Shown here piece after piece: positions 4,381 through 25,718 of a stretch of DNA of 34,295 nt; position 1 is the stretch's first letter; the number at the start of each line of letters is the position of its first letter. Both the position numbers and the translations under genes were made by a program. The notes under the pieces were generated by a model, which worked only from the letters and a program-made list of their open reading frames with translations, was not told the origin of the DNA and ran no database searches. This DNA is from Sulfurospirillum sp. (GTDB lineage: Bacteria > Campylobacterota > Campylobacteria > Campylobacterales > QNZT01), in the NCBI GenBank assembly GCA_024762875.1, contig JANTGR010000006.1, positions 1-34,295 of the forward strand, in the 5' to 3' direction.

Positions 4381-5586
4381 CTATCTTTTGAGTAAATCAA
4401 TCATAAAAAAGTCAGAATCACCATTGCCATAGCTTTTTGTTTCTCCCACGATGACAAATGAGCCTCTAGCGGTTTTAGTCACTGCATGCGCCATATCTTT
4501 ACTCGCGCCTCCATAGAGATTGCCCCAGACAGAATGTCCTTTGCTATCGAGTTCTAAAACATAAAAGTCATATTTTCCGTGTCCGATTGATTTCGTGGTT
4601 CCTACAACTAAAAAACCGCCTTCAGGTGTGCTTGTGACATCATTGCCGTATTCAATGCTTTTAAACCCAAAAAGTTGGTGCCAGACCTGTTCACCATTTT
4701 TATCCAATCTCATGACATCAACATCTTTATGTTTGCTGCCATAAGACTCTGTTGCACCCGTTGTAACACAGCCACCGTCTTTGGTTGCAGTCAGACCATG
4801 CACGATGTCATCAGGCTCTTCTCCATAAGCTTTTGCCCAAAGCTGCTTGCCCTCTGGTGTTATTTTACTGATATAAAAGTCAAAATTACCATCATTATAA
4901 GAACTGGATCCGCCTGCAAGGATAAAGTTACCGTCACTGGATTTGACAATAGCATTGGCGATGTCGTCACGTTTGCCGCCAAAAGTTTTTTGCCAGATTT
5001 TATTGCCGTTTTTATCGAGTTTCAGTAGATAGATATCTTTTTCACCTTTACCAAAAGATTCAGTGGTTCCCACAGTGATCACGCCGCCATCTTTGGTCGG
5101 GGCAACACCATAAAGATACTCCGCATCATCTCCGCCATATGCTTTTTGCCACAGTAGTTTTCCATCAGGTGAGAATTTAACGATATAAGCATCTTTGTCA
5201 CCAGATTTATTAAAAGATTCTCCATAGCCAACCATCACAAGATTGCCATCGCTGGTCATCGTAACAGCGCTGCCCAGATCTCTTTTTTTACCACCAAAGG
5301 CTTTTTTCCAGAGTGTGCGTCCTTTGCTGTTCACACGGATAGCGCAGAGATCTTCCCTGCCATGTCCCATAGACCTGCAGGTACCGGCAACGATCACATC
5401 TCCATTTTTCAGCGCTATGACATCTGAAGCGATCTCTTTTTTACTGCCTCCAAAGGTACTTTTCCAGGTAAATTTCAACTCGGGTTTACTGGGCTTTTTG
5501 CTAGGACTGTTCTCTTGTTTTGCTACAGCCTGCAGACTCAAAAGTGAAGTCAGTATCAGTGGCAAAACCGCTTTTTTAATCATCAT
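4381..5586 (-). CDS. Secreted seven-repeat (about 52 aa) beta-propeller-like protein
   Basis: Signal peptide MMIKKAVLPLILTSLLSLQAVA; seven repeats of the form W-KTFGG-(KD)DIA-AV--T-DGG-IVVG-T-S-G-G--D-Y--KLD-NG. Confidence 0.85.
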   Translation of the reverse strand: MMIKKAVLPLILTSLLSLQAVAKQENSPSKKPSKPELKFTWKSTFGGSKKEIASDVIALKNGDVIVAGTCRSMGHGREDLCAIRVNSKGRTLWKKAFGGKKRDLGSAVTMTSDGNLVMVGYGESFNKSGDKDAYIVKFSPDGKLLWQKAYGGDDAEYLYGVAPTKDGGVITVGTTESFGKGEKDIYLLKLDKNGNKIWQKTFGGKRDDIANAIVKSSDGNFILAGGSSSYNDGNFDFYISKITPEGKQLWAKAYGEEPDDIVHGLTATKDGGCVTTGATESYGSKHKDVDVMRLDKNGEQVWHQLFGFKSIEYGNDVTSTPEGGFLVVGTTKSIGHGKYDFYVLELDSKGHSVWGNLYGGASKDMAHAVTKTARGSFVIVGETKSYGNGDSDFFMIDLLKR

Positions 5587-6480: not shown

Positions 6481-7764
6481 ATGGCAAGTGGATTTAAGGC
6501 ACTAAAAGGACAGGGGCATTGGCCGACGCTGTTTGCAGCATTTTTATATTTTGATTTTTCTTTTATGGTGTGGACGATGTTAGGGCCGCTGTCTACAGAG
6601 ATTACAGAGTCTTTGGCAGCAGGTGGATTTATGATGAGCCCTTCCCAAAAAGCGACTTTACTTTCTCTCCCTATTTTATCAGGGGCACTTTTGCGGATAT
6701 TGCTTGGTTTTGGTGTTGATAAACTAGGAGCCAAAAAAACAGCACTGATAGCACAGGCTGTTGTTATATCTTCTCTCTTTTTTGCTTATCTGCAAGGTGA
6801 ATCTATCACGTACAGTCAATTACTTGTTGTTGCATTGGGACTTGGTTTTGCAGGGGCTTCATTTGCTGTGGCACTCCCACAGGCAGGTCAATGGTATCCG
6901 CCAAAACTGCAGGGTATAGTACTGGGTATCGCAGGTGCAGGAAACATTGGTGTAGTTATCGACTTTCTTTTTGCACCAAAGATTGCAGAGCTTTGGGGAT
7001 GGCAAGCCGTATTTTTGGTAGGTGGTATTCTTTCGACTATTATATTTATAGCGTACATGTTTATGGCAAAAGATGCACCAGCATCTGTTTATACTCCCAG
7101 ACCTAAAAAAATCAAAGATTATTTTAAATTGCTAAAAGATAAAGATACCTGGTGGTTTAATCTTTTTTATGCGGTCAGTTTTGGTGGATTTGTAGGATTT
7201 GCAGGTTATATGAAGGTGTATTTGATGAACACTTATCAGGCGGATATGTCTGCTTTTGGCTTGGATATGCTTGATGAAAGTAATGTGAAAGTTATTGCCG
7301 GTTATTTTGGTGCCCTTTGTATCTTCGCCGGTGCGGTTTTAAGACCGGTTGGTGGTAATATTGCAGATAAAATCGGTGGAATCAAATCGCTTTATTTTTT
7401 CTTTGGAACTGTAGCGATACTGGCAATTGTCAATGCGACAATGCACCTTCCTTTTTATATAGCTATCATTGTATTGTTCTTAATCATGGCCAATCTTGGG
7501 ATGGCAAACGGGGCAGTATTTCAACTGGTACCACAAAGATTTGGCAAAGATATCGGTATCATGACAGGTATCATCGGTGCAGCCGGTGGACTAGGCGGTA
7601 CGGCACTGATTAAAACATTGGGATGGAGTAAAGGGGCATTTGATGGCTATGCAGCTGGATTTGTGATCTTTGCATGTGTCGTTTTGCTGGCAGTTGCTGG
7701 TATATCTTTTGTCAAAACCAGATGGAGAACGACCTGGGGTGTGCAGGCAGGCGGAATCATTTAA
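6481..7764 (+). CDS. narK: MFS nitrate/nitrite transporter, NarK family
   Basis: FDFSFMVWTMLGPLSTEI, LLSLPILSGALLRILLGFGVDKLGAKK, NLGMANGAVFQLVPQRF(G) are NarK-family signatures. Confidence 0.93.
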   Translation: MASGFKALKGQGHWPTLFAAFLYFDFSFMVWTMLGPLSTEITESLAAGGFMMSPSQKATLLSLPILSGALLRILLGFGVDKLGAKKTALIAQAVVISSLFFAYLQGESITYSQLLVVALGLGFAGASFAVALPQAGQWYPPKLQGIVLGIAGAGNIGVVIDFLFAPKIAELWGWQAVFLVGGILSTIIFIAYMFMAKDAPASVYTPRPKKIKDYFKLLKDKDTWWFNLFYAVSFGGFVGFAGYMKVYLMNTYQADMSAFGLDMLDESNVKVIAGYFGALCIFAGAVLRPVGGNIADKIGGIKSLYFFFGTVAILAIVNATMHLPFYIAIIVLFLIMANLGMANGAVFQLVPQRFGKDIGIMTGIIGAAGGLGGTALIKTLGWSKGAFDGYAAGFVIFACVVLLAVAGISFVKTRWRTTWGVQAGGII

Positions 7765-7776
7765 TGAAGCAATAAT

Positions 7777-9408
7777 ATGGCAAATATTTCATTTTCAGGA
7801 TTTTCTCTTGCAAAAGGCACCAATCTCACAGGTGATGATGCTTTTGCAACCAAAAAATTGCATGATATAGCGATTGCTGTATTATGTGATGGTGTTGGCA
7901 GTGCTGAACATGGACAGGATGCCGCCAATCGTGTTACCAGTTTTCTGCTTCAATCTCTCAAGAACAGACCTCTTTCATGGAGTATAGAAAAATCCATTAC
8001 CCATTTTATTGAAAGTATCAATGCTATTTTATATCAGGAATCAATGGAAATGTGCGGGCGCGTAGAATTTGTTACAACTGTAACAGTCGTCGTCATTGCC
8101 GGAGATAGATTGTATGGTGCCAATGTCGGAGACAGTCGTATCTATATGCTGCGAAATGGTGTATTGACACAGCTTTCAAAAGACCATGCCAGTGATGAAG
8201 CAGGAATGGAAAATGTCTTAACAGCAGCGGTAGGAATCGCGCCTGAGATCGATATCTATTATTTTGAAAATGAGATAAAAGAGCATGATAAAGTATTACT
8301 TTGCAGTGATGGCCTCTATAATGTCATGGCAGAAAATTATTTGGCAAGGGATATTCCTCTTGGTGCAAATTTATTGGTTAAAAAAGCCAGTAAATTGATG
8401 GAAAACAACCTGCCTGATGATACAACAGCAGTTGTAATTGATATCAAGGGTACAGATCTGGTCAATGCACTCAAAAAAGAGCAGCTTACTATCCCTCAAA
8501 ACATCAAAAAGGGTGATGATTATGATGGATATAAACTTATAAAACCTTTGGTGCAAAATGAAAGAACCTGGCTTTGTACACAAAAAGGGCAAACATATGT
8601 CATCAAGTTTGCACCTCTTGAAGCGGCTGATGATACGCGTCTGTTAGATCTCTTTGTGAAGGAAGTCTGGAATGCCAAACGCCTTAAAGCAGGTTTTTTT
8701 CCAAAATCAGTCATACCTAAAAATCGAACATCCCGTTATTATATTATGCAGATGATAGAGGGTGATGAAGTCAAAAAATATCTTCAAAAAAGGCTGCTCT
8801 CTGTTGATGAAGGGGTCAATCTTGCGATTTTTTTACTTAAAATGAGTCAGTTTTTACTTAAATTTGACCTTGTTCACGGTGATATAAAACCTGAAAATAT
8901 CATACGCGCACAAAGAAAAGGCAAAACCTATTATAAGATGATTGATTTTGGTTCTATTGTAGAAATATTTTCGATCAATACCCGTGCGGGTACCCCAAGC
9001 TATCTTGCACCCGAGAGATTTAAGGGCGACAGTATCAATGAAAAATCAGAGATATTTTCTATCGGTGTGACACTATATGAAGCTTTAAGTGCAAAGCTTC
9101 CCTATGGTGAGATAGAACCATTTCAAACACCGACTTTTAAAGAAGTAAAACGATTGTCCAAACGCAATCCAAAAGTGCCTCTTTGGTTGGAAAGTGTGAT
9201 ATTAAAGGCAATTTCACCAGATGAAAATAGACGTTATCAAAACTATTCGGAGATGCTGTATGAACTGGAAAATCCTGAAACAGTCAAAGCTTTTTACAGC
9301 AAAGACACCCCTTTGCTGGAGAGAGATCCTCTGCTGACATGTCGCATCGGTCTTGGCCTGGTTATGCTTATAAATATTGTCCTGGTCTATATGCTAAGTA
9401 TGGGATAA
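7777..9408 (+). CDS. Bifunctional PP2C-type phosphatase / Ser-Thr protein kinase with C-terminal TM helix
   Basis: N-terminal PP2C motifs DGVGSAEHG, ANVGDSRIYM, SDGLYNV; C-terminal kinase VHGDIKPENII, MIDFGS, GTPSYLAPERF; terminal hydrophobic helix. Confidence 0.93.
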   Translation: MANISFSGFSLAKGTNLTGDDAFATKKLHDIAIAVLCDGVGSAEHGQDAANRVTSFLLQSLKNRPLSWSIEKSITHFIESINAILYQESMEMCGRVEFVTTVTVVVIAGDRLYGANVGDSRIYMLRNGVLTQLSKDHASDEAGMENVLTAAVGIAPEIDIYYFENEIKEHDKVLLCSDGLYNVMAENYLARDIPLGANLLVKKASKLMENNLPDDTTAVVIDIKGTDLVNALKKEQLTIPQNIKKGDDYDGYKLIKPLVQNERTWLCTQKGQTYVIKFAPLEAADDTRLLDLFVKEVWNAKRLKAGFFPKSVIPKNRTSRYYIMQMIEGDEVKKYLQKRLLSVDEGVNLAIFLLKMSQFLLKFDLVHGDIKPENIIRAQRKGKTYYKMIDFGSIVEIFSINTRAGTPSYLAPERFKGDSINEKSEIFSIGVTLYEALSAKLPYGEIEPFQTPTFKEVKRLSKRNPKVPLWLESVILKAISPDENRRYQNYSEMLYELENPETVKAFYSKDTPLLERDPLLTCRIGLGLVMLINIVLVYMLSMG

Positions 9409-9494
9409 ATGCTTATAATTTAAGCAGCATTGATAACAAATCAGAACTATTTTTGACTATACTAGAATGAGTAAGATCTGGGGATAGGAAAATT

Positions 9495-11075
9495 ATGCAA
9501 ACAACACCATTGGAAAGTTTTATCGATTATAAAGCTGATACAGGCATGCAGTGTGGGAACTATCATATAGATATCCCTAAACTCAAAGAGGGAGAGCAGT
9601 ACCGTTTTCATTTTGATATGCAGGCCTGTGTGGGTTGTCATTGTTGTGAAGTAGCCTGCAATGAGCAAAATAACAACACACCTGATATCAAGTGGCGTCG
9701 TGTGGGAGAGATGGAAGCAGGAACTTTTCCTGCAGTCAGTCAACTTTTTAACTCAATGTCCTGCAACCACTGTATCGATCCGGAGTGTTTAAAAGGCTGC
9801 CCGACAAATTCTTATATCAAATTTGATAATGGTATCGTTTATCATGATGATGATGTCTGTATCGGTTGTCAATACTGTACATGGAACTGTCCATATGAAG
9901 TACCTATGTTTAATCCTGACCGGGGTATTGTGACAAAGTGTCATATGTGTCATGAAAAGCTGGATGAAGGAGAGACACCCGCTTGTGTACAAGCCTGTCC
10001 CGGCGGTGCTATCGAGATAGAAGCGGTCAATGTCGAAAAATGGCTAGAAGAGGATATGGCAAAAGAAGGTGTTGCACCGCATCTGCCTGATATCTCAATC
10101 ACTAAACCGACAACACGTTATACTCTGGCAGCATTTAATGGAGAAGTAAAACCAGCAGATGAACATATATTAAAACCGGCACATGCTGAATTACCGCTCG
10201 TTTTTATGACAGTATTGACGCAAGTTTCTGTGGGTGGTTTTTTGGCACTTTTTTTAGGTTCTCTTTTACATTATTTTGGATTTAATCTGCCAAAACCAAG
10301 CGCTTGGCTGGCTTTGGCAGTATTGCTACCTGCAGCTTTGGGATTACCGCTTTCTGCCCTGCATCTAGGTCGTCCTATCATGGCAATAACAGCGATGAAA
10401 AATATCAAAACCTCATGGCTTTCACGGGAAGCAGCTGCATTGGGAGCATATGCCGGTGGCGCGACTTTGGTAGCGGCGCTCTATTTTTTGGGTGTTGATG
10501 GTTTTATCATGATAGCATTGCAGGCAGGAGTATTGGCAATCGGTTTAGCGGGAATTTATTCACAGGCAAAGATATACCGTATCAAAGCACGTCCTTCCTG
10601 GGATAGAAGTTCTACCGATAAGAAATTTTTTGGTACAGGTTATGTGGGATTTTTATTAACAGCTTTTGTGATGTTATTTGGTGATGCAGATAGATCGGTG
10701 ATGGCGATATTGGCATTGACACTGCTATTTGGGGCATATCAGATGTTTGTAATATATGAGGAAAATACCTTTTACAAGTATCTGAGTGAAAATGAAAAAA
10801 ACTATTATCAGCTTTCACGTACAAAAAGATTATTGGAAGAGCGATTTGGAAAATTGAAACAGATTCGTTTAATCACTTTGGCAATTTTTGCTTTGGGGAT
10901 GCCGATTTTAGCTATCATTTTGACAGCTTCAGGGATGATTACTGTTGCAGGTGTACTGCTTGGCGTAGCCATCGCAGGTGCACTGACAAGTGAGTTGATC
11001 GGACGATATCTATTTTTTAGAAGTGTGGTGCCTTTGGGGCTTGCGGGGAACTTTTTTGCAGGGAATCAACGATGA
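9495..11075 (+). CDS. Fused four-cluster 4Fe-4S electron-transfer subunit (DmsB-like) and DmsC-like membrane anchor
   Basis: ACVGCHCCEVAC, CNHCIDPECLKGC, CIGCQYCTWNC, CHMCHEKLDEGETPACVQAC followed by multiple TM helices (LPLVFMTVLTQVSVGGFLALFLG...). Confidence 0.9.
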   Translation: MQTTPLESFIDYKADTGMQCGNYHIDIPKLKEGEQYRFHFDMQACVGCHCCEVACNEQNNNTPDIKWRRVGEMEAGTFPAVSQLFNSMSCNHCIDPECLKGCPTNSYIKFDNGIVYHDDDVCIGCQYCTWNCPYEVPMFNPDRGIVTKCHMCHEKLDEGETPACVQACPGGAIEIEAVNVEKWLEEDMAKEGVAPHLPDISITKPTTRYTLAAFNGEVKPADEHILKPAHAELPLVFMTVLTQVSVGGFLALFLGSLLHYFGFNLPKPSAWLALAVLLPAALGLPLSALHLGRPIMAITAMKNIKTSWLSREAAALGAYAGGATLVAALYFLGVDGFIMIALQAGVLAIGLAGIYSQAKIYRIKARPSWDRSSTDKKFFGTGYVGFLLTAFVMLFGDADRSVMAILALTLLFGAYQMFVIYEENTFYKYLSENEKNYYQLSRTKRLLEERFGKLKQIRLITLAIFALGMPILAIILTASGMITVAGVLLGVAIAGALTSELIGRYLFFRSVVPLGLAGNFFAGNQR

Positions 11076-13378
11076 TAAAAAAAATAAAAGACTTTTTGGG
11101 AGTCGATATCAAAAATGACAAATATGCGTTGGTAGATGATGAAATATTTGGTAAAGTAGCCAAGTCTAAAAAGCCTGATAAGTGGATACGTTCGACTTGT
11201 GGATATTGCGGAGTTGGCTGCGGGCTCTATATCGGGGTCAAAGATGGCCAGCCTGTCTATACCAAAGGAGACCCTGCACATCCTGTGAGCAAAGGTACGC
11301 TTTGTCCAAAGGGTCTCAGTGAACATGAAATGGTACGTGCCAATAATCGTCTAACAACACCGCTAGTACGCAAAGATGGCCACTTGGCTCCTGTAGAATG
11401 GGATGAAGCCTTTAAAAAGGCAAGTGAGGCTTTTAAAGATGTAGCACAGAAACATGGTAAAGAGGCAGTAGCCTGTATCTCAACAGGGCAACTACTGACA
11501 GAAGAGTTTTATACACTTGGTAAATTTGTGCAACTGGGACTCGGAAGCAACAACTATGACGGCAATACTACACTGTGCATGTCCTCGGCAGTGATGGGAT
11601 ACAAACAATCATTTGGGTCAGATGGCCCTCCGGGGTGTTATGAGGACTTTTCGCATGCGGATGTTATCATGCTTATCGGGGCAAATATCGCGGATAATCA
11701 TCCTATCCTCAAACTCCATATTGCCAAAAATAAAAAGACAACAGGGAAAAAACCGACTATCATTGTAGTAGATCCCCGTCACTCCAAAACTGCCAATATG
11801 GCAGACATCTTTGTGCCGCTTAAACCACGTACCGATTTGGCACTTATCAATGGATTGTGTCATATCATCTGGGAGCAGGGCTGGGCGGATGAGAGCTTTA
11901 TGCGTGAGAAGGCAAGCGGTTATAAAGCATTTGTCAAACATATCCAAAATTACCCGCCGCAAGAAGTGGCCAACATCACCGGTATCGAAGTCAAAGTGCT
12001 TTATGAACTGGCACGCATCTATGCTGGAGCAGACAAAGCGATGTCTGCGTGGACAATGGGAGTCAATCAATCTGCCCTTGGAACCGATACGGTCTCAGCT
12101 ATTTGTAATATGGCGTTGATGACGGGGAATCTCGGTCGTGAAGGTGCATCACCATTTTCCATCACGGGACAGTGTAACGCGATGGGAACAAGAGAAAGCG
12201 GATTTACTTCTTCGATACCGGGATATCGTAATTTTGCAAGTTCGCATGATAGAGAAGAGTATGCGAGCATTGTCGGTGTTCCGACCGAGATTGTACCTGA
12301 TAAAAGGGGCTATGCCTATCCACAGATTATCGAGGGAATTGAAAAAGGTGAAATAAAAGCATTGTGGGTTGTGGCGACCAATCCGCTGGTGAGCTATCCT
12401 GACCAACCACGCCTAAGGGCTGCGCTTAAAAAGCTGGATATGCTTGTAGTACAAGATGCTTTTATGAGTGATACCGCTCAGCTGGCTGATGTCATTTTTG
12501 CTGCGGCAACATGGAGTGAGAAAGATGGGACTTATACCAACTCTGAGAGGCGTTGTAACTTGGCAAAAAAAGCGGTTGAGCCTATTGGAAAGAGTAAAAG
12601 TGACTTTCATATCGTAGTAGAGTTTTCCCGATACTTTGATGGGGCATATGAACTGTTGTTTGAGGGCTGGGAAGATCCTCGTGATGCTTTTGCTGAGTGG
12701 CAAAAAGTGAGTAAGGGACAGTTGTGCGACTATTCGGGGATGAGCTATGAAAAGATAGAGACACTAGGCGGTATCCAATGGCCGTGCAATGCAGAAAATC
12801 CAGATGGCACACCAAGACTCTATCATGATACAATGGAGTGTACAACCGAAGATGGCAAACCAAAGTTTATCTGTGCAGATTGGGAACCGATGGCGGAAAA
12901 TATCTGTGAGGGATTTCCACTCGTGTTAAACTCTGGGCGTACGGTAGAACAATTTCACACACGCACCAAAACAGGAGAGATAGCTATCCTTGACAATCTC
13001 GCCCCTGAAGCATGGATAGAACTCAATCCTAAAGATGCAGAAAAACTCCAGGTAAAAAGTGGCGAACGCATGGGTATATCCTCCCCACGTGGACGCATAG
13101 ACGATCTTGTTGTCAAAGTCACAGAAGGGGTGAGAGAAGGCAATATATTTGTACCGTTTCACTACAACACAGAGCTTATCAACACGCTCACACAATCACT
13201 TTTTGACCCAAAATCTTTTGAACCAAACTTCAAGCAAACCGCTGTACAGGTGCATAGTGAAAAAGTGCCTGAAGGGATAGTCTTTCCACAGACTGAGATC
13301 GTGGGAGAACTCTCTCATGATAAGGTGACTGAAGAAGTTAGTGGAGTAAAAGTGGAAGAAAAGGTTGCCAAGTCTTGA
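11072..13378 (+). CDS. nasA: Molybdopterin oxidoreductase, assimilatory-type nitrate reductase catalytic subunit
   Basis: N-terminal CGYCGVGCGLYIG...GTLCPKG 4Fe-4S motif, no Tat signal, adjacent to narK and nitrite reductase; overlaps the preceding ORF by 4 nt. Confidence 0.85.
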   Translation: MIKKIKDFLGVDIKNDKYALVDDEIFGKVAKSKKPDKWIRSTCGYCGVGCGLYIGVKDGQPVYTKGDPAHPVSKGTLCPKGLSEHEMVRANNRLTTPLVRKDGHLAPVEWDEAFKKASEAFKDVAQKHGKEAVACISTGQLLTEEFYTLGKFVQLGLGSNNYDGNTTLCMSSAVMGYKQSFGSDGPPGCYEDFSHADVIMLIGANIADNHPILKLHIAKNKKTTGKKPTIIVVDPRHSKTANMADIFVPLKPRTDLALINGLCHIIWEQGWADESFMREKASGYKAFVKHIQNYPPQEVANITGIEVKVLYELARIYAGADKAMSAWTMGVNQSALGTDTVSAICNMALMTGNLGREGASPFSITGQCNAMGTRESGFTSSIPGYRNFASSHDREEYASIVGVPTEIVPDKRGYAYPQIIEGIEKGEIKALWVVATNPLVSYPDQPRLRAALKKLDMLVVQDAFMSDTAQLADVIFAAATWSEKDGTYTNSERRCNLAKKAVEPIGKSKSDFHIVVEFSRYFDGAYELLFEGWEDPRDAFAEWQKVSKGQLCDYSGMSYEKIETLGGIQWPCNAENPDGTPRLYHDTMECTTEDGKPKFICADWEPMAENICEGFPLVLNSGRTVEQFHTRTKTGEIAILDNLAPEAWIELNPKDAEKLQVKSGERMGISSPRGRIDDLVVKVTEGVREGNIFVPFHYNTELINTLTQSLFDPKSFEPNFKQTAVQVHSEKVPEGIVFPQTEIVGELSHDKVTEEVSGVKVEEKVAKS

Positions 13379-13406
13379 GATGGATTTGAAGAATTGTAGA
13401 ATAGAG

Positions 13407-13489
13407 TGTTTTGAACAAACACACTAGTGAACGACTCTACAGCCGTTTTACGGCGCAGCCTTAGTGAATAAGTGTGTTTCTTCAGAACA
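13407..13489. repeat. Imperfect 19-bp inverted repeat around a 45-nt structured loop
   Basis: TGTTTTGAACAAACACACT (13407-13425) versus reverse complement of 13471-13489 TGTTCTGAAGAAACACACT, 17/19 identical; inner GCCG-TTTTA-CGGC hairpin. Confidence 0.8.
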
Positions 13490-13592
13490 TGCAATACTTT
13501 ATACCTATAAGCGTGAGTGTGTAAGTCTATTGATTAAAATTTATCCATTAAAGTGCATTTAAAATATTGTTTTTTTTGTACAATAGAAGTAC

Positions 13593-13617
13593 GGACACCT
13601 CTAAAAATCCTAGGCGC
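13593..13617 (+). repeat. Dispersed 25-bp repeat copy 1, nirA leader
   Basis: GGACACCTCTAAAAATCCTAGGCGC; 21/25 identical to the reverse complement of 27711-27735. Confidence 0.7.
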
Positions 13618-13645
13618 CCGTAATTTAATGAAGGATAGAGCTATC

Positions 13646-15526
13646 ATGACAGAACAGATCAAAATAGTCAGTGAACAACGCAATCAGAAAATCAATAAAA
13701 TAGAAAAGATTAAACCAAAGCGTACCATGCAGGAGGCTATGGATCTACTAAAAAGCTATGCAGAGACTGGCTATGATTCTATAGATAAAGACGATAAAGC
13801 TGTTTTTTTCAAATATTTTGGGATTTTTGATAAAGAAAAAAGCAATGGTGCAAATCACTTTATGTTACGTGTGCGTGTTCCATCGGGACAGTTAAGTGCC
13901 TCTCAGGCTAAAAAGATAGGAGAAATAGCCAAAGAATATGGAAACAATTACATTGATATAACGACACGGATGCAGATAGAACTTCGTTATTTGAAGATAG
14001 AAGATTTATATACAGTTTTAGAAGAACTGCAAAGTGTGGGTATCTCTACTTATCAAACAGGGATTGATAATCTTAGAAATATTGTTACAGATCCGCTTGA
14101 TGGACTAAGTTATGACAATGTGATAGAGACAAAAGAGCTGATCGAAAAGATGCAGGATATTTTTCTGCAAAAAGAGGAGTGGGTAGGGACACTACCTAGA
14201 AAATTCAATACTTCCATCTCTGGAAACTATGCCAACCGCTGTAATGTATTTGCCCATGACTGCTCATTTGCTCTGGCAGACAAAGATGGTGAATTTGGAT
14301 TTAATGTTTATTTAGGCGGGCGTGTTGGCATGCTGGCAAAAAATGCGGATGTGTTTGTGCGCCCTCATGAAGCAGTACCGTTTTTTGAAGCACTGATTGA
14401 GATCTTCAAAGAGTATGGCTTTCGTGACAATCGCAATAAGAACAGATTGCACTTTTTTATCGAAGCGGTGGGCATGGAGACACTGATAGAAGCGATCAAA
14501 GAACGCTCTGGACTGGCATTTCAAAGTGCAGGTCATCATCAAGTAGAACTTGAACATTTTGATGCAAAGTATGGAAAAGTAGCACAAAAAGATGGAAAAT
14601 ATGCACTACATGTTGTCGTACCTGCAGGTATATTTGACGGTCTTTCCATGATGGAAGCCGGGCAGATAGCCCATATGCACGGCAGTGGGATCCGGCTTAG
14701 TGTTGATCAAAATCTTTATATCACCGGAATCGACGCAGACGATGTGGATAAAGTTCTGGCATGGGATTTGTTTCAAACATATAAAAATGTCAATACGCCT
14801 TTTTACAACCATATGATTTCCTGTGCAGGTAGTGATAACTGTTCTTTTGGTGTGATACCAGGTAAAGTCGATGCTCTGGATATGTCGGCGTACCTGAGTG
14901 ATAAAATCACACTGGAAGATGCAAAAATACGTATCTACTGGTCTGCCTGTGTCAAAGGATGCGGCATCCATGAGCTGGGTGATATCGGACTGTTGGGATG
15001 TAAAGCAAAAGTAGAAGGCAAGGCAGTACCGGGTGTGGATATCATGATAGGTGGTAAGCTGGTAGCCGAAAGCCAGGATGCGCACACTCTGCTCAAATCA
15101 ATTCCGCTTGAAAAAGCAAAGTATTATGTGGAAGAATTGGTTTTGGAGTATAAAAGGTTGAAAAAACCCAATGAGAGTTTTGAAAAATTTAATGAACGGG
15201 TTTTAGTCAAGTACTCTTATGCTGCAGTGGCTTTTATGATGAGTTATAATTATCTCTTTAAAAACAATCCAAAACTTGAACTGGATGAAGACCCCAAAAC
15301 ATTCAAACATGAAGCTTTTGAAGTCTTTCATTTTGGTGAAAAACTCTACCGGTCAATCACCGGTGAGAGACCATATGGATTGGTGAAAAATTTTGTACCG
15401 GAAGGTAACAATATAACACTGGAAAGCAAAGAAAAATCTGCTGAAATCATCAATAAAATGATTGCTGCCAACAGCAGCCGTGCTGAAGTATTTTCTGAAC
15501 TATTGGTAGAGATGAATCAGTTCTGA
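13646..15526 (+). CDS. nirA: Siroheme nitrite/sulfite reductase, probably ferredoxin-type assimilatory nitrite reductase
   Basis: Cys motifs SCAGSDNC and ACVKGCGIH for 4Fe-4S/siroheme, context with nasA/narK. The track starts at 13553; ATG 13646 (MTEQIKIV, RBS AAGGAT) or 13628 is more plausible. Confidence 0.85.
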   Translation: MTEQIKIVSEQRNQKINKIEKIKPKRTMQEAMDLLKSYAETGYDSIDKDDKAVFFKYFGIFDKEKSNGANHFMLRVRVPSGQLSASQAKKIGEIAKEYGNNYIDITTRMQIELRYLKIEDLYTVLEELQSVGISTYQTGIDNLRNIVTDPLDGLSYDNVIETKELIEKMQDIFLQKEEWVGTLPRKFNTSISGNYANRCNVFAHDCSFALADKDGEFGFNVYLGGRVGMLAKNADVFVRPHEAVPFFEALIEIFKEYGFRDNRNKNRLHFFIEAVGMETLIEAIKERSGLAFQSAGHHQVELEHFDAKYGKVAQKDGKYALHVVVPAGIFDGLSMMEAGQIAHMHGSGIRLSVDQNLYITGIDADDVDKVLAWDLFQTYKNVNTPFYNHMISCAGSDNCSFGVIPGKVDALDMSAYLSDKITLEDAKIRIYWSACVKGCGIHELGDIGLLGCKAKVEGKAVPGVDIMIGGKLVAESQDAHTLLKSIPLEKAKYYVEELVLEYKRLKKPNESFEKFNERVLVKYSYAAVAFMMSYNYLFKNNPKLELDEDPKTFKHEAFEVFHFGEKLYRSITGERPYGLVKNFVPEGNNITLESKEKSAEIINKMIAANSSRAEVFSELLVEMNQF

Positions 15527-15528
15527 TC

Positions 15529-16674
15529 CTATTTTTGGTGGATCAAAAAGATATCTATACCGCCGTTACCATAGCTCTCTGTTTCTCCTGCGATGAAGAA
15601 AGAGCCATCTTTGATCTGGGTAACACCGTGTGCAATGTCCATCTTTTTGCCACCATAATGCCCACTGCCTTTGACTGTACCATTTTGGTCTATCATGATA
15701 GAGAGTATATCAGCACGTCCGTTACTCACAGACCTCGTTGATCCTACGATGAGATAATCCCCATTTTTTGCTGCTGTAACGGCAGTAGCATACTCTTTTC
15801 CTGTTCCGCCATAAGTCTTTTCCAGCAGTTTGTCACCGTCTTCGTTGATTTTGAGTATATAGGCATCCCCTTTGTGATGTACAAAAGATTTTGTTTTTCC
15901 TACCAGTACAAACTCTCCATTTTTCCCTTTTGCAATGGCGTTGAGTTCATCATCTTTCTTGCCCCCATAGGTCTCTTCCCAGAGTTGTTTTCCATTGTGG
16001 TCAAGTTTGACTACAAAACCGTCATAGCCGTTATCACCAAAGGATTCGCTTTTGCCTACGAGTATAAAATCGCCATTATCTGTCTCGACAACCCCTTTGG
16101 GAATATCCCAGTCTTTTCCGCCTGCTGTTTGCCTCCACTGCACTTTGCCCTCTTTTGTGAGTTTGAGTGCATAAAAATCATACGACCCTTTGCCAAATGA
16201 TTTACTGCTTCCAACAACCAACACACCGCCATCTTTAGTCGCTGTTACCGCGGTAGCCTGGTCTTTGCCATCTCCGCCTGCTGTTCTTTGCCAAAGCGTA
16301 TTGCCTTTACTGTCGACTTTGACGATAAAGTAGTCATAACCGCCTTTTCCAAAAGATTTGGTAGTGCCTACACCGACATAGCCTCCATCAGTAGTTTGTG
16401 TGACAGCTGTACCGTAATCTTTTCTCTCTCCTCCAAAGAATTTATTCCAGACTTTATGCCCTTTGGCATCCAGTTTGATGAGCGACATATCGTTTCTACC
16501 TTTACCAAAGGATCTTGTAGAACCTATCATGATAGCACCGCCATCATCGGTTGCTGTGATAGCATAGGCTATGTCATCTTTATCACCTCCAAAAGTTTTT
16601 TGCTTAAAAGATGTCTGTGTGGCTGAGAGGAGTGATAATGTGAGAAGAGAAGTGATCATGATAGATTTTGTCAT
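15529..16674 (-). CDS. Secreted seven-repeat beta-propeller-like protein, paralog of 4381..5586
   Basis: Seven repeats of about 52 aa with FGGDKDDIAYAITATDDGGAIMIGSTRSFGKG consensus; N-terminal signal peptide MTKSIMITSLLTLSLLSATQ. Confidence 0.85.
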   Translation of the reverse strand: MTKSIMITSLLTLSLLSATQTSFKQKTFGGDKDDIAYAITATDDGGAIMIGSTRSFGKGRNDMSLIKLDAKGHKVWNKFFGGERKDYGTAVTQTTDGGYVGVGTTKSFGKGGYDYFIVKVDSKGNTLWQRTAGGDGKDQATAVTATKDGGVLVVGSSKSFGKGSYDFYALKLTKEGKVQWRQTAGGKDWDIPKGVVETDNGDFILVGKSESFGDNGYDGFVVKLDHNGKQLWEETYGGKKDDELNAIAKGKNGEFVLVGKTKSFVHHKGDAYILKINEDGDKLLEKTYGGTGKEYATAVTAAKNGDYLIVGSTRSVSNGRADILSIMIDQNGTVKGSGHYGGKKMDIAHGVTQIKDGSFFIAGETESYGNGGIDIFLIHQK

Positions 16675-23285: not shown

Positions 23286-25718
23286 TTATTTCCAACCTTT
23301 GCTAACGATATTGCTTGATTTGCCGTATGGATATTTTTCAACCAATTCTTTTACAGAAAGTTTCTGATCTCCATCTCTCATAAAGTGTGCCAATGTGACT
23401 GAAGCCCAGTAGTCATTTTCATACTCTGTGCCGTCTAGCATATTTGGTACACCGTTTTTATTTGTTGTGTGACAAGCTGCACATGTTACAGGACCTGCAT
23501 ATTCACCATCAGGGCTGTATTGAAGTGCTTGTTCATGTGTTGTTTTATCAACTGTTCTATTTGGCCCGTCATATCTTGTAGAGTATAAACCATGTGCTGA
23601 TTCATGACAAGATTGACATGCGATATTACCATGCCCTTTAGAATATCTGAAAAGTGACAATTTATTTGGTTGATCGATTGGGAAGTACTGCCCACCCATA
23701 CTCTCAACAAATGGTGCGATGTGACAATCTGCACAATGAGGCTCTGACGCACTCAACCACCAGTCATTTCCGCCAGAAGCTGCTTTATAAGGTACTTCTC
23801 CACCAGTAGGATGATTCCATGGTTTAAGATCCAGTCCTTTTTTAGCTACATTTTTTACCAAAGTTGCTGATTCATGATCTGTATAATAACTCAGTGCTTC
23901 GTTGTTACCGGTAGTTTTTGGATCTGCATATGAGTTGAAAAGTTTAACATCTCCACCAGCCACTACATCGATAATTTCTTTGAGAGATTTGCCTCTGATA
24001 CTATCACCTGTTAATGTTTGTGCTTCTGTTATGTTATCAGCTTTGTACATTTTCTGTGCTACTTTTGTATGACAGTTTGTACAGTAAAGACCTCTCATTT
24101 TAGAGACAGGTTTTCCATGCTCGTCTTTCATACTGACTTCATTAAGTTGATGTTTACCATATTCATTTAAGAAGAAAGGCGGTTTTGCATCTGGATTGGA
24201 GTGTGCATCACGTCTAACATAACAACCACCACCACTATTTCTGATATCTTTACTGGAAAATCGACCTTTACCATATCTATCCGTGACTCTGTAAGGATTG
24301 GAGTCATCATTCATAGATGGATCCTGGAAGTGTGTAGGGTGACAGGATTGACATGCCTGTGTTCTACCTGCAGCATCTGGCATAGGTACCATACCCAAGT
24401 GGAATCCATGTATCGCTTCGGTTAATGTTTTGGCATGAACTGCTTTATAACCTGTTGCTGTTGGACGTGGTTCTTGCAGGTTCCCTGAAACATTGTCACC
24501 ATGACAATCGGCACAGTTGACTTCACCTACTTTACCCAAACGGTTACCCGGTGCATCGGATTTGTAGTCTGACAAAAATGTTGTACCATGGTGTGCATCA
24601 TGCAATGAAAGTATATTGATTGAAGATTCTGCAAGTCTTGCCATATATTCACTCTCATCCGGATAAGATTTCCAGTATGCATACTCTTTATCAGAAAGTT
24701 TTAGTCCTTCATCTCTTGCCATCTGTGCTGCTTTACCTTCTCTTGAGTGACAGGCATAACAGTTTGGTATATCTACCGGATTTGTTCCAAAATATTGTGT
24801 GACCTGATTGTTGGCATTTAGAACTGGTTTCCCCTCTTTTGTATGTAACTGAACCTGAGAATACTGAAATGGCTGGAAGTCTTTTTCTGTGACTGAGCGG
24901 ATCGTACCTCTTCTTGTACTGTCATTAAATGCTGTCAATGGAAGACCAAGCGCATCCCAAACATAAGAAGATGTCAAAGTCAGTGGAATATTTTTGACTT
25001 GTGGCACTAATGTATCTGTAAAAACGATATTTCCACCATGCTTTCCAGCATAAGTGAGATATCCGCCAGCTATAGATTGTCCTGAAGGTCCACAATCAAA
25101 CTTCACTTTGATCTGCTTACCAATTCGCAGTCTGTCTTTATCTGCAGCACCTGCAGGAATGGTACCTTCTAGATCTTTATAGATAAAGAGATGTCCCCAT
25201 ACATAGTTGGCAACATTATCACCCGGACTGTCAAAGTGACCATCTCCGTCGACATCTTTAGGTACAGACCAGTATTTCATCTTGTTACCTTCACTATATG
25301 AGTTGTCTTTTACATTATAGTAAAGCTTTACTTCATCATCCGGACTTAAAAGTTTTGGCAATTTGCCTTTTGCCCCACTTTGAATTGCTTGGGCTTGAAT
25401 AGAGTTATATGGCGGAATAACACAACAATAACTCATTTCAAAACCAACACAGTGCATACCCAGTTCATAGTTGATGAAAATATTGTAGTCATTTTTAGGT
25501 GCAAAGTGTACACCATCAGCTTTTAGTTTAGACATGCTAAACGGCGGGGTTTTTGTATATGTTGCCGGTGCTGTAGTTGTTGTAGAAGCAGATTTTATAT
25601 GTTTTGCCTCTGCAGCGACTGCATCATTGACTGCATCATTCGGCATGGCGCTGCATGCTGTGACAATAGCCACAAGTGAAAGTGCAGAAACAGCATAAGC
25701 GCTTTTTCGTAATTTCAT
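23286..25718 (-). CDS. Lipoprotein multihaem c-type cytochrome (seven CXXCH motifs)
   Basis: Lipobox VAIVTACSA; CYACH, CADCH, CQSCH, CTNCH, CADCH, CQSCH, CAACH. Confidence 0.9.
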   Translation of the reverse strand: MKLRKSAYAVSALSLVAIVTACSAMPNDAVNDAVAAEAKHIKSASTTTTAPATYTKTPPFSMSKLKADGVHFAPKNDYNIFINYELGMHCVGFEMSYCCVIPPYNSIQAQAIQSGAKGKLPKLLSPDDEVKLYYNVKDNSYSEGNKMKYWSVPKDVDGDGHFDSPGDNVANYVWGHLFIYKDLEGTIPAGAADKDRLRIGKQIKVKFDCGPSGQSIAGGYLTYAGKHGGNIVFTDTLVPQVKNIPLTLTSSYVWDALGLPLTAFNDSTRRGTIRSVTEKDFQPFQYSQVQLHTKEGKPVLNANNQVTQYFGTNPVDIPNCYACHSREGKAAQMARDEGLKLSDKEYAYWKSYPDESEYMARLAESSINILSLHDAHHGTTFLSDYKSDAPGNRLGKVGEVNCADCHGDNVSGNLQEPRPTATGYKAVHAKTLTEAIHGFHLGMVPMPDAAGRTQACQSCHPTHFQDPSMNDDSNPYRVTDRYGKGRFSSKDIRNSGGGCYVRRDAHSNPDAKPPFFLNEYGKHQLNEVSMKDEHGKPVSKMRGLYCTNCHTKVAQKMYKADNITEAQTLTGDSIRGKSLKEIIDVVAGGDVKLFNSYADPKTTGNNEALSYYTDHESATLVKNVAKKGLDLKPWNHPTGGEVPYKAASGGNDWWLSASEPHCADCHIAPFVESMGGQYFPIDQPNKLSLFRYSKGHGNIACQSCHESAHGLYSTRYDGPNRTVDKTTHEQALQYSPDGEYAGPVTCAACHTTNKNGVPNMLDGTEYENDYWASVTLAHFMRDGDQKLSVKELVEKYPYGKSSNIVSKGWK

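Follow-up and report, generated by a model that had tools for sequence, protein, structure and literature searches.

A putative quinol-linked assimilatory nitrate reductase with an inverted, fused iron-sulfur/DmsC-type anchor in Campylobacterota

Within the window (the whole 34,295-nt stretch of DNA analysed, on contig C6 of a source genome of 2.28 Mb and 89% completeness), a nitrate reductase catalytic subunit of assimilatory type (Nas) is encoded directly behind FeSC, a single chain in which a four-cluster iron-sulfur subunit is fused to a DmsC-type membrane anchor. Judging from conserved residues, charge bias and the distribution of both genes, we place a probability of about 0.78 on FeSC-Nas being an N-side-facing, electroneutral menaquinol:nitrate oxidoreductase dedicated to assimilation, with NirA then making ammonium. 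Five genes occupy positions 6481-15526 in the order narK, PP2C/kinase, FeSC, nas and nirA; the first-pass annotation had reported this order with these coordinates, and matches to domain and family profiles located all five as described. The 4-nt overlap it had noted between the fusion gene and the reductase gene was also found (ATGA, 11072-11075). The features are as follows.

6481..7764, + strand: NarK-family nitrate/nitrite MFS transporter (nitrate uptake); TIGR00886 236 bits, MFS_1
7777..9408, + strand: PP2C phosphatase plus Ser/Thr kinase, probable regulator; PP2C_2, Pkinase
9495..11075, + strand: FeSC, 526 aa, single chain of a four-[4Fe-4S] part and an 8-TM quinol anchor of DmsC/SoeC type; Fer4_11, DmsC, DMSO_dmsB 148 bits
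11072..13378, + strand: Nas, 768 aa, cytoplasmic catalytic subunit of a Mo-bisMGD nitrate reductase; molybdopterin oxidoreductase match and active-site residues
13400..13520, no strand: high-copy palindromic repeat between nas and nirA, outside the mechanism; ~40 genome copies, hairpin fold
13646..15526 (ORF opens with GTG at 13553), + strand: NirA, siroheme ferredoxin-type nitrite reductase; NIR_SIR, NIR_SIR_ferr

FeSC has 16 cluster cysteines in four groups (45/48/51/55, 90/93/98/102, 122/125/128/132 and 149/152/164/168), all invariant in 60 homologues, and it matches both E. coli DmsB (38% identity) and DmsC, so that its earlier description as a single-chain, four-cluster DmsB-DmsC fusion holds. 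Two further cysteines beyond these ligands, C20 and C50 (window 9552-9554 and 9642-9644), are also invariant and lie in the motifs MQCGNY and CVGCxCCEVAC, respectively. FeSC thus unites what characterizes complex iron-sulfur molybdoenzymes, namely a four-cluster subunit and an NrfD/DmsC anchor with quinol-site residues. AlphaFold models of FeSC and Nas were single-chain and shallow (pLDDT 74 and 73.5); that of FeSC, confident in the membrane part and of low confidence in the FeS domain, matched PsrB, PsrC with bound menaquinone and ActC-like (alternative complex III membrane) chains. No record in the plasmid collection covered 80% of FeSC. A four-cluster/8-TM single-chain fusion also adjoins a molybdoenzyme in Thermomicrobium roseum (L123:3995-8456), where the FeSC profile matches only the FeS part.

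The side of the membrane on which FeSC would work was read from the loops between its eight TM helices. In every one of 65 homologues, Lys and Arg residues number 18-25 (about 20) on the FeS side vs 0-3 (about 0.5) on the opposite side, and by the positive-inside rule this concentration places the FeS domain in the cytoplasm. E. coli DmsC, the FeS side of which is periplasmic, showed the opposite bias when used as a control (4 on the FeS side vs 8), whereas a SoeC-like protein encoded beside xsc was biased as FeSC is (20 vs 0) and shares with it the motif HLGRP...SWLSRE. We infer that the anchor of FeSC has the orientation opposite to that in DmsABC and resembles SoeABC in this respect, which would make it the second likely inverted anchor of the NrfD/DmsC type after SoeABC. 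The quinol-site residues of DmsC are Ser62, His65, Ser82 and Glu87 (PMC8076601); S287, H290, S307 and E312 of FeSC align with them and are invariant in all homologues.

Nas carries the residues expected of a nitrate reductase. Its N-terminal [4Fe-4S] ligands (C43/C46/C50/C78), the molybdenum-ligating Cys with the Met that follows it (C169-Met170), T365 and the motif GQCNAMGxRE are invariant in 43 homologues, and the signatures CM(A/S)SA and TGQCNAMGxRE occur in 18 of the 18 FeSC-linked enzymes compared, matching nitrate reductases. Formate dehydrogenase references instead show Cys/Sec-His (or Gln) and RG(Q/H)NNVQGA-type motifs; the positions of their His and Arg are Met170 and Thr365 in Nas, which has the TGQxNAMGxRE signature of assimilatory enzymes in place of RGxNNVQG. 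The first-pass annotation had also reported the reductase to be without a Tat signal, and this was confirmed: the motif was absent from 57 of 57 reductase homologues (and from 65 of 65 fusion homologues), while NapA controls were positive. The best tree united the FeSC-linked enzymes in one clade (100/100) that adjoined haloarchaeal NasA and was separate from NapA and formate dehydrogenase; grouping with Nas enzymes was supported at 98/95 and 95/90, with long branches at the join to haloarchaeal NasA. Phylogeny had been put forward as the way to place the reductase, and here the outcome was mixed: the best tree and the active-site residues side with nitrate reductases, whereas AU tests left a grouping with formate dehydrogenases or with NapA unrejected (P about 0.12), so the tree supports the placement without proving it. 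The predicted fold of Nas was closest to Desulfovibrio desulfuricans NapA, with formate dehydrogenases close behind. Ranking of NCBIfam matches was considered as evidence for a formate dehydrogenase and set aside: Fdh-alpha was the best match of Nas, yet it also topped the NarB-type and other nitrate reductases tested, the sole exception being haloarchaeal NasA (above its own cut-off), and the ranking is therefore uninformative for Nas.

Coupling between FeSC and Nas extends across the phylum. Among 140 Campylobacterota genomes, the two occur in exactly the same 18 (11 genera; hypergeometric P = 5 × 10−23, uncorrected for kinship). They are retained together even where unlinked, lying on different contigs in two genomes (G003 and G026) and 50 kb apart in a third (G064). 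A set of 75 related loci was assembled from GTDB contigs by an exact-peptide scan, which therefore recovers close kin only (the loci with a record name are from Campylobacterota). FeSC and nas lie within 100 bp of one another in 47 of the 60 loci that hold both, and 21 show the identical 4-nt overlap, an arrangement far more frequent than chance would give. Pairwise distances of FeSC and Nas were strongly correlated (r = 0.96 over 47 loci; r = 0.98 over 17 common loci), compared with 0.83 for FeSC and Nir; values for FeSC and NarK were in the range 0.2-0.3, one of them 0.24. Taken with the conserved residues, the charge bias and the invariant quinol site, this association of the two genes across the phylum lends support to the quinol-driven cytoplasmic nitrate reduction suggested in the first-pass annotation, which continues to be a reading of sequence features. 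Upstream of FeSC in one locus (L048:6525-9924) lies a cassette, conserved also in L022, L031 and L043, that encodes a 196-aa unknown protein, a 553-aa COX1-family haem-copper protein (possibly a relative of NO reductase), a 201-aa unknown protein and a YcxB-like protein of 173 aa.

An assimilatory role is suggested by the company that the pair keeps. A NirA orthologue was present in 22 of the 140 genomes, comprising all 18 with FeSC-Nas, three with a soluble NarB-type reductase and one with neither, and nirA is often linked to the FeSC-nas pair; in Arcobacter-like relatives, nirB and nirD lie directly 3' of nas. The soluble NarB type was found in five genomes, among which the source genome (G000) is the only one that also has FeSC-Nas; there it is encoded on contig C123 (locus L121, 206-5471), divergently from an ABC transporter with an NMT1/NrtA-like substrate-binding protein. 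As 17 of the 18 FeSC-Nas genomes are without the NarB type, FeSC-Nas looks like their only assimilatory nitrate reductase. NarB replaces Nas in the other four genomes, three of which have NirA, so FeSC-Nas appears to fill the slot of the assimilatory nitrate reductase and the two types look interchangeable. NirA of the window scored 355 bits against the ferredoxin-nitrite reductase model, under its cut-off of 594, and the internal ATG at 13646 is a likelier start than the GTG at 13553. It has a C-terminal extension of ~100 aa that is common to Sulfurimonas-type NirA and missing from Arcobacter-type copies.

narK adjoins FeSC-nas in many relatives as well. On a betaproteobacterial plasmid, a homologue of the PP2C-kinase is flanked by an MFS transporter and by nirBD/nitrate reductase genes, and in Acinetobacter another adjoins a formate/nitrite transporter, so the protein seems to be a usual companion of nitrate and nitrite genes and not special to FeSC-Nas; a literature search on what such a kinase/phosphatase might do found mainly plant studies and nothing pertinent. 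A promoter scan yielded fewer sites than in shuffles and is uninformative. The repeat at 13400-13520 is an imperfect palindrome of about 95 bp that folds as a hairpin and resembles a MITE or REP element, with ~40 copies across the source genome at 86-96% identity; it had no match in Rfam and no copies in eight relatives, one of them of the same genus. Since it separates nas from nirA, it interrupts the operon. Two similar secreted proteins, PQQ/DUF5122 propeller-like, are encoded on the reverse strand on either side of the cluster (window 4381-5586 and 15529-16674), and the same strand encodes, at 23286-25718, an 810-aa multihaem c-type cytochrome with MtrC/C7-like matches that adjoins an MlaE/MlaD-like ABC operon.

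The genes, their residues, the charge bias of the anchor, the co-occurrence and the gene coupling are direct observations; that the chains form a complex, that quinol donates the electrons, that nitrate is the substrate and that the role is assimilatory is our inference. As we picture the mechanism, FeSC and Nas would form a two-chain menaquinol:nitrate oxidoreductase at the cytoplasmic face of the inner membrane, and NirA, presumably with ferredoxin, would convert the nitrite into ammonium to be assimilated. As quinol would be oxidised on the side where nitrate is reduced, the first step is expected to be electroneutral, at a cost of quinol and of no low-potential ferredoxin. By established redox potentials, the drop from menaquinol to nitrate is large and favourable, whereas NirA requires electrons of low potential to reduce nitrite, and so each step probably has a donor of its own. 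Were Nas an ordinary soluble enzyme, FeSC would be an adjacent gene that serves some other redox enzyme. Ferredoxin or NAD(P)H does supply the known NasA and NarB enzymes, and FeSC is unlinked from nas in some relatives; however, the unlinked cases fall within exactly the same set of genomes, FeSC and Nas distances are far more tightly correlated than those of neighbouring genes, and domain searches of Nas and the cluster found no electron-entry domain or partner of the FAD, NAD(P)H or [2Fe-2S] kind, which together leave a soluble Nas unlikely.

A cytoplasmic enzyme that drains quinol mainly for redox balance or respiration would fit the usual respiratory character of quinol-linked nitrate reduction and its draw on the respiratory pool, and NarB is there for assimilation in some genomes. 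We nonetheless regard such a role as improbable: NarB accompanies FeSC-Nas in only one of 18 genomes whereas NirA does so in all of them, often linked; a Tat-bearing NapA of respiratory type is already encoded in the source genome; and chemistry confined to one side of the membrane is not expected to conserve energy. Less probable still is that Nas feeds the quinone pool, either as a formate dehydrogenase or by oxidising sulfite in the manner of SoeABC. The top rank of Fdh-alpha, which also heads the lists of nitrate reductases, does not discriminate, and although the anchor resembles SoeC and the AU test does not reject the formate dehydrogenase clade, the His and Arg of those enzymes are replaced, the nitrate reductase motifs are invariant and the genes alongside are those of NarK, NirA and NirBD.

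An assimilatory FeSC-Nas complex would combine parts known from several systems. Like NarGHI, it would reduce nitrate with quinol at the cytoplasmic face; in NarG, however, the ligand is Asp, and NarI is a cytochrome of the haem b type, whereas FeSC-Nas has a Cys ligand, a DmsC-type anchor and no NarG-family subunit (35 bits for Nas against the narG model, cut-off 1084). NapA, of the same MopB clade as Nas, works with NapGH, an FeS protein and a membrane quinol dehydrogenase, but is periplasmic and Tat-exported, and NapGH is not a DmsBC-type module. DmsABC has similar DmsB-like clusters, and the four residues of its DmsC quinol site recur in FeSC; it differs in facing the periplasm and in its Tat-exported DmsA with a Ser ligand, while FeSC-Nas pairs an inverted and fused anchor with a Cys-ligand Nas enzyme. 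SoeABC also comprises a four-cluster subunit and a DmsC-family anchor without a Tat signal, with a charge pattern that would place the FeS domain and quinone site on the N-side, but its catalytic subunit belongs to another MopB family, SoeB and SoeC are separate chains and its electrons run from substrate to quinone. With NasA/NarB/NasC, Nas shares active-site residues, cytoplasmic location and the setting of NarK and a siroheme nitrite reductase; it departs from those ferredoxin- or NAD(P)H-partnered enzymes in its four-cluster/anchor partner, as no member of the clade of Nas, Aio, Nap and cytoplasmic formate dehydrogenases has been associated with four-cluster or anchor subunits (PMC7331816). 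A review of NrfD/DmsC-type complexes includes no nitrate reductase and expects an inverted orientation for SoeABC alone (PMC8076601). Campylobacterota surveys, in the portions available, record NasA, NarB and NirA genes and mention no FeS/anchor partner of the reductase (PMC7952632, PMC5401914, PMC4288042), and a literature search that reached few subscription journals found no description of the FeSC partner. The module is thus of a known type (inverted, SoeBC-like) and so is the enzyme (Nas); their combination is undescribed in the literature searched.

Assimilatory and respiratory nitrate reductases are normally distinguished by electron donor, and FeSC-Nas seems to be of assimilatory type yet wired to quinol. 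If so, it would break the published rule by which four-cluster or anchor subunits never accompany enzymes of the Nas/Nap/Aio clade (PMC7331816). It would also account for how Sulfurimonas, Arcobacter-like and related vent bacteria, which appear as NasA/NarB-positive with no partner in the available portions of the surveys, could reduce nitrate. We think it likely, with somewhat less confidence than for the function of the pair itself, that a phylum-wide group of chemolithoautotrophs assimilates nitrate via a quinol-driven N-side complex of a Nas-clade molybdoenzyme and an inverted SoeBC-type module. With Nas seemingly hard-wired to the quinol pool, nitrate assimilation in these sulfur-oxidising marine Campylobacterota would compete with respiration, and ferredoxin would be spared for CO2 fixation by the reverse TCA cycle.
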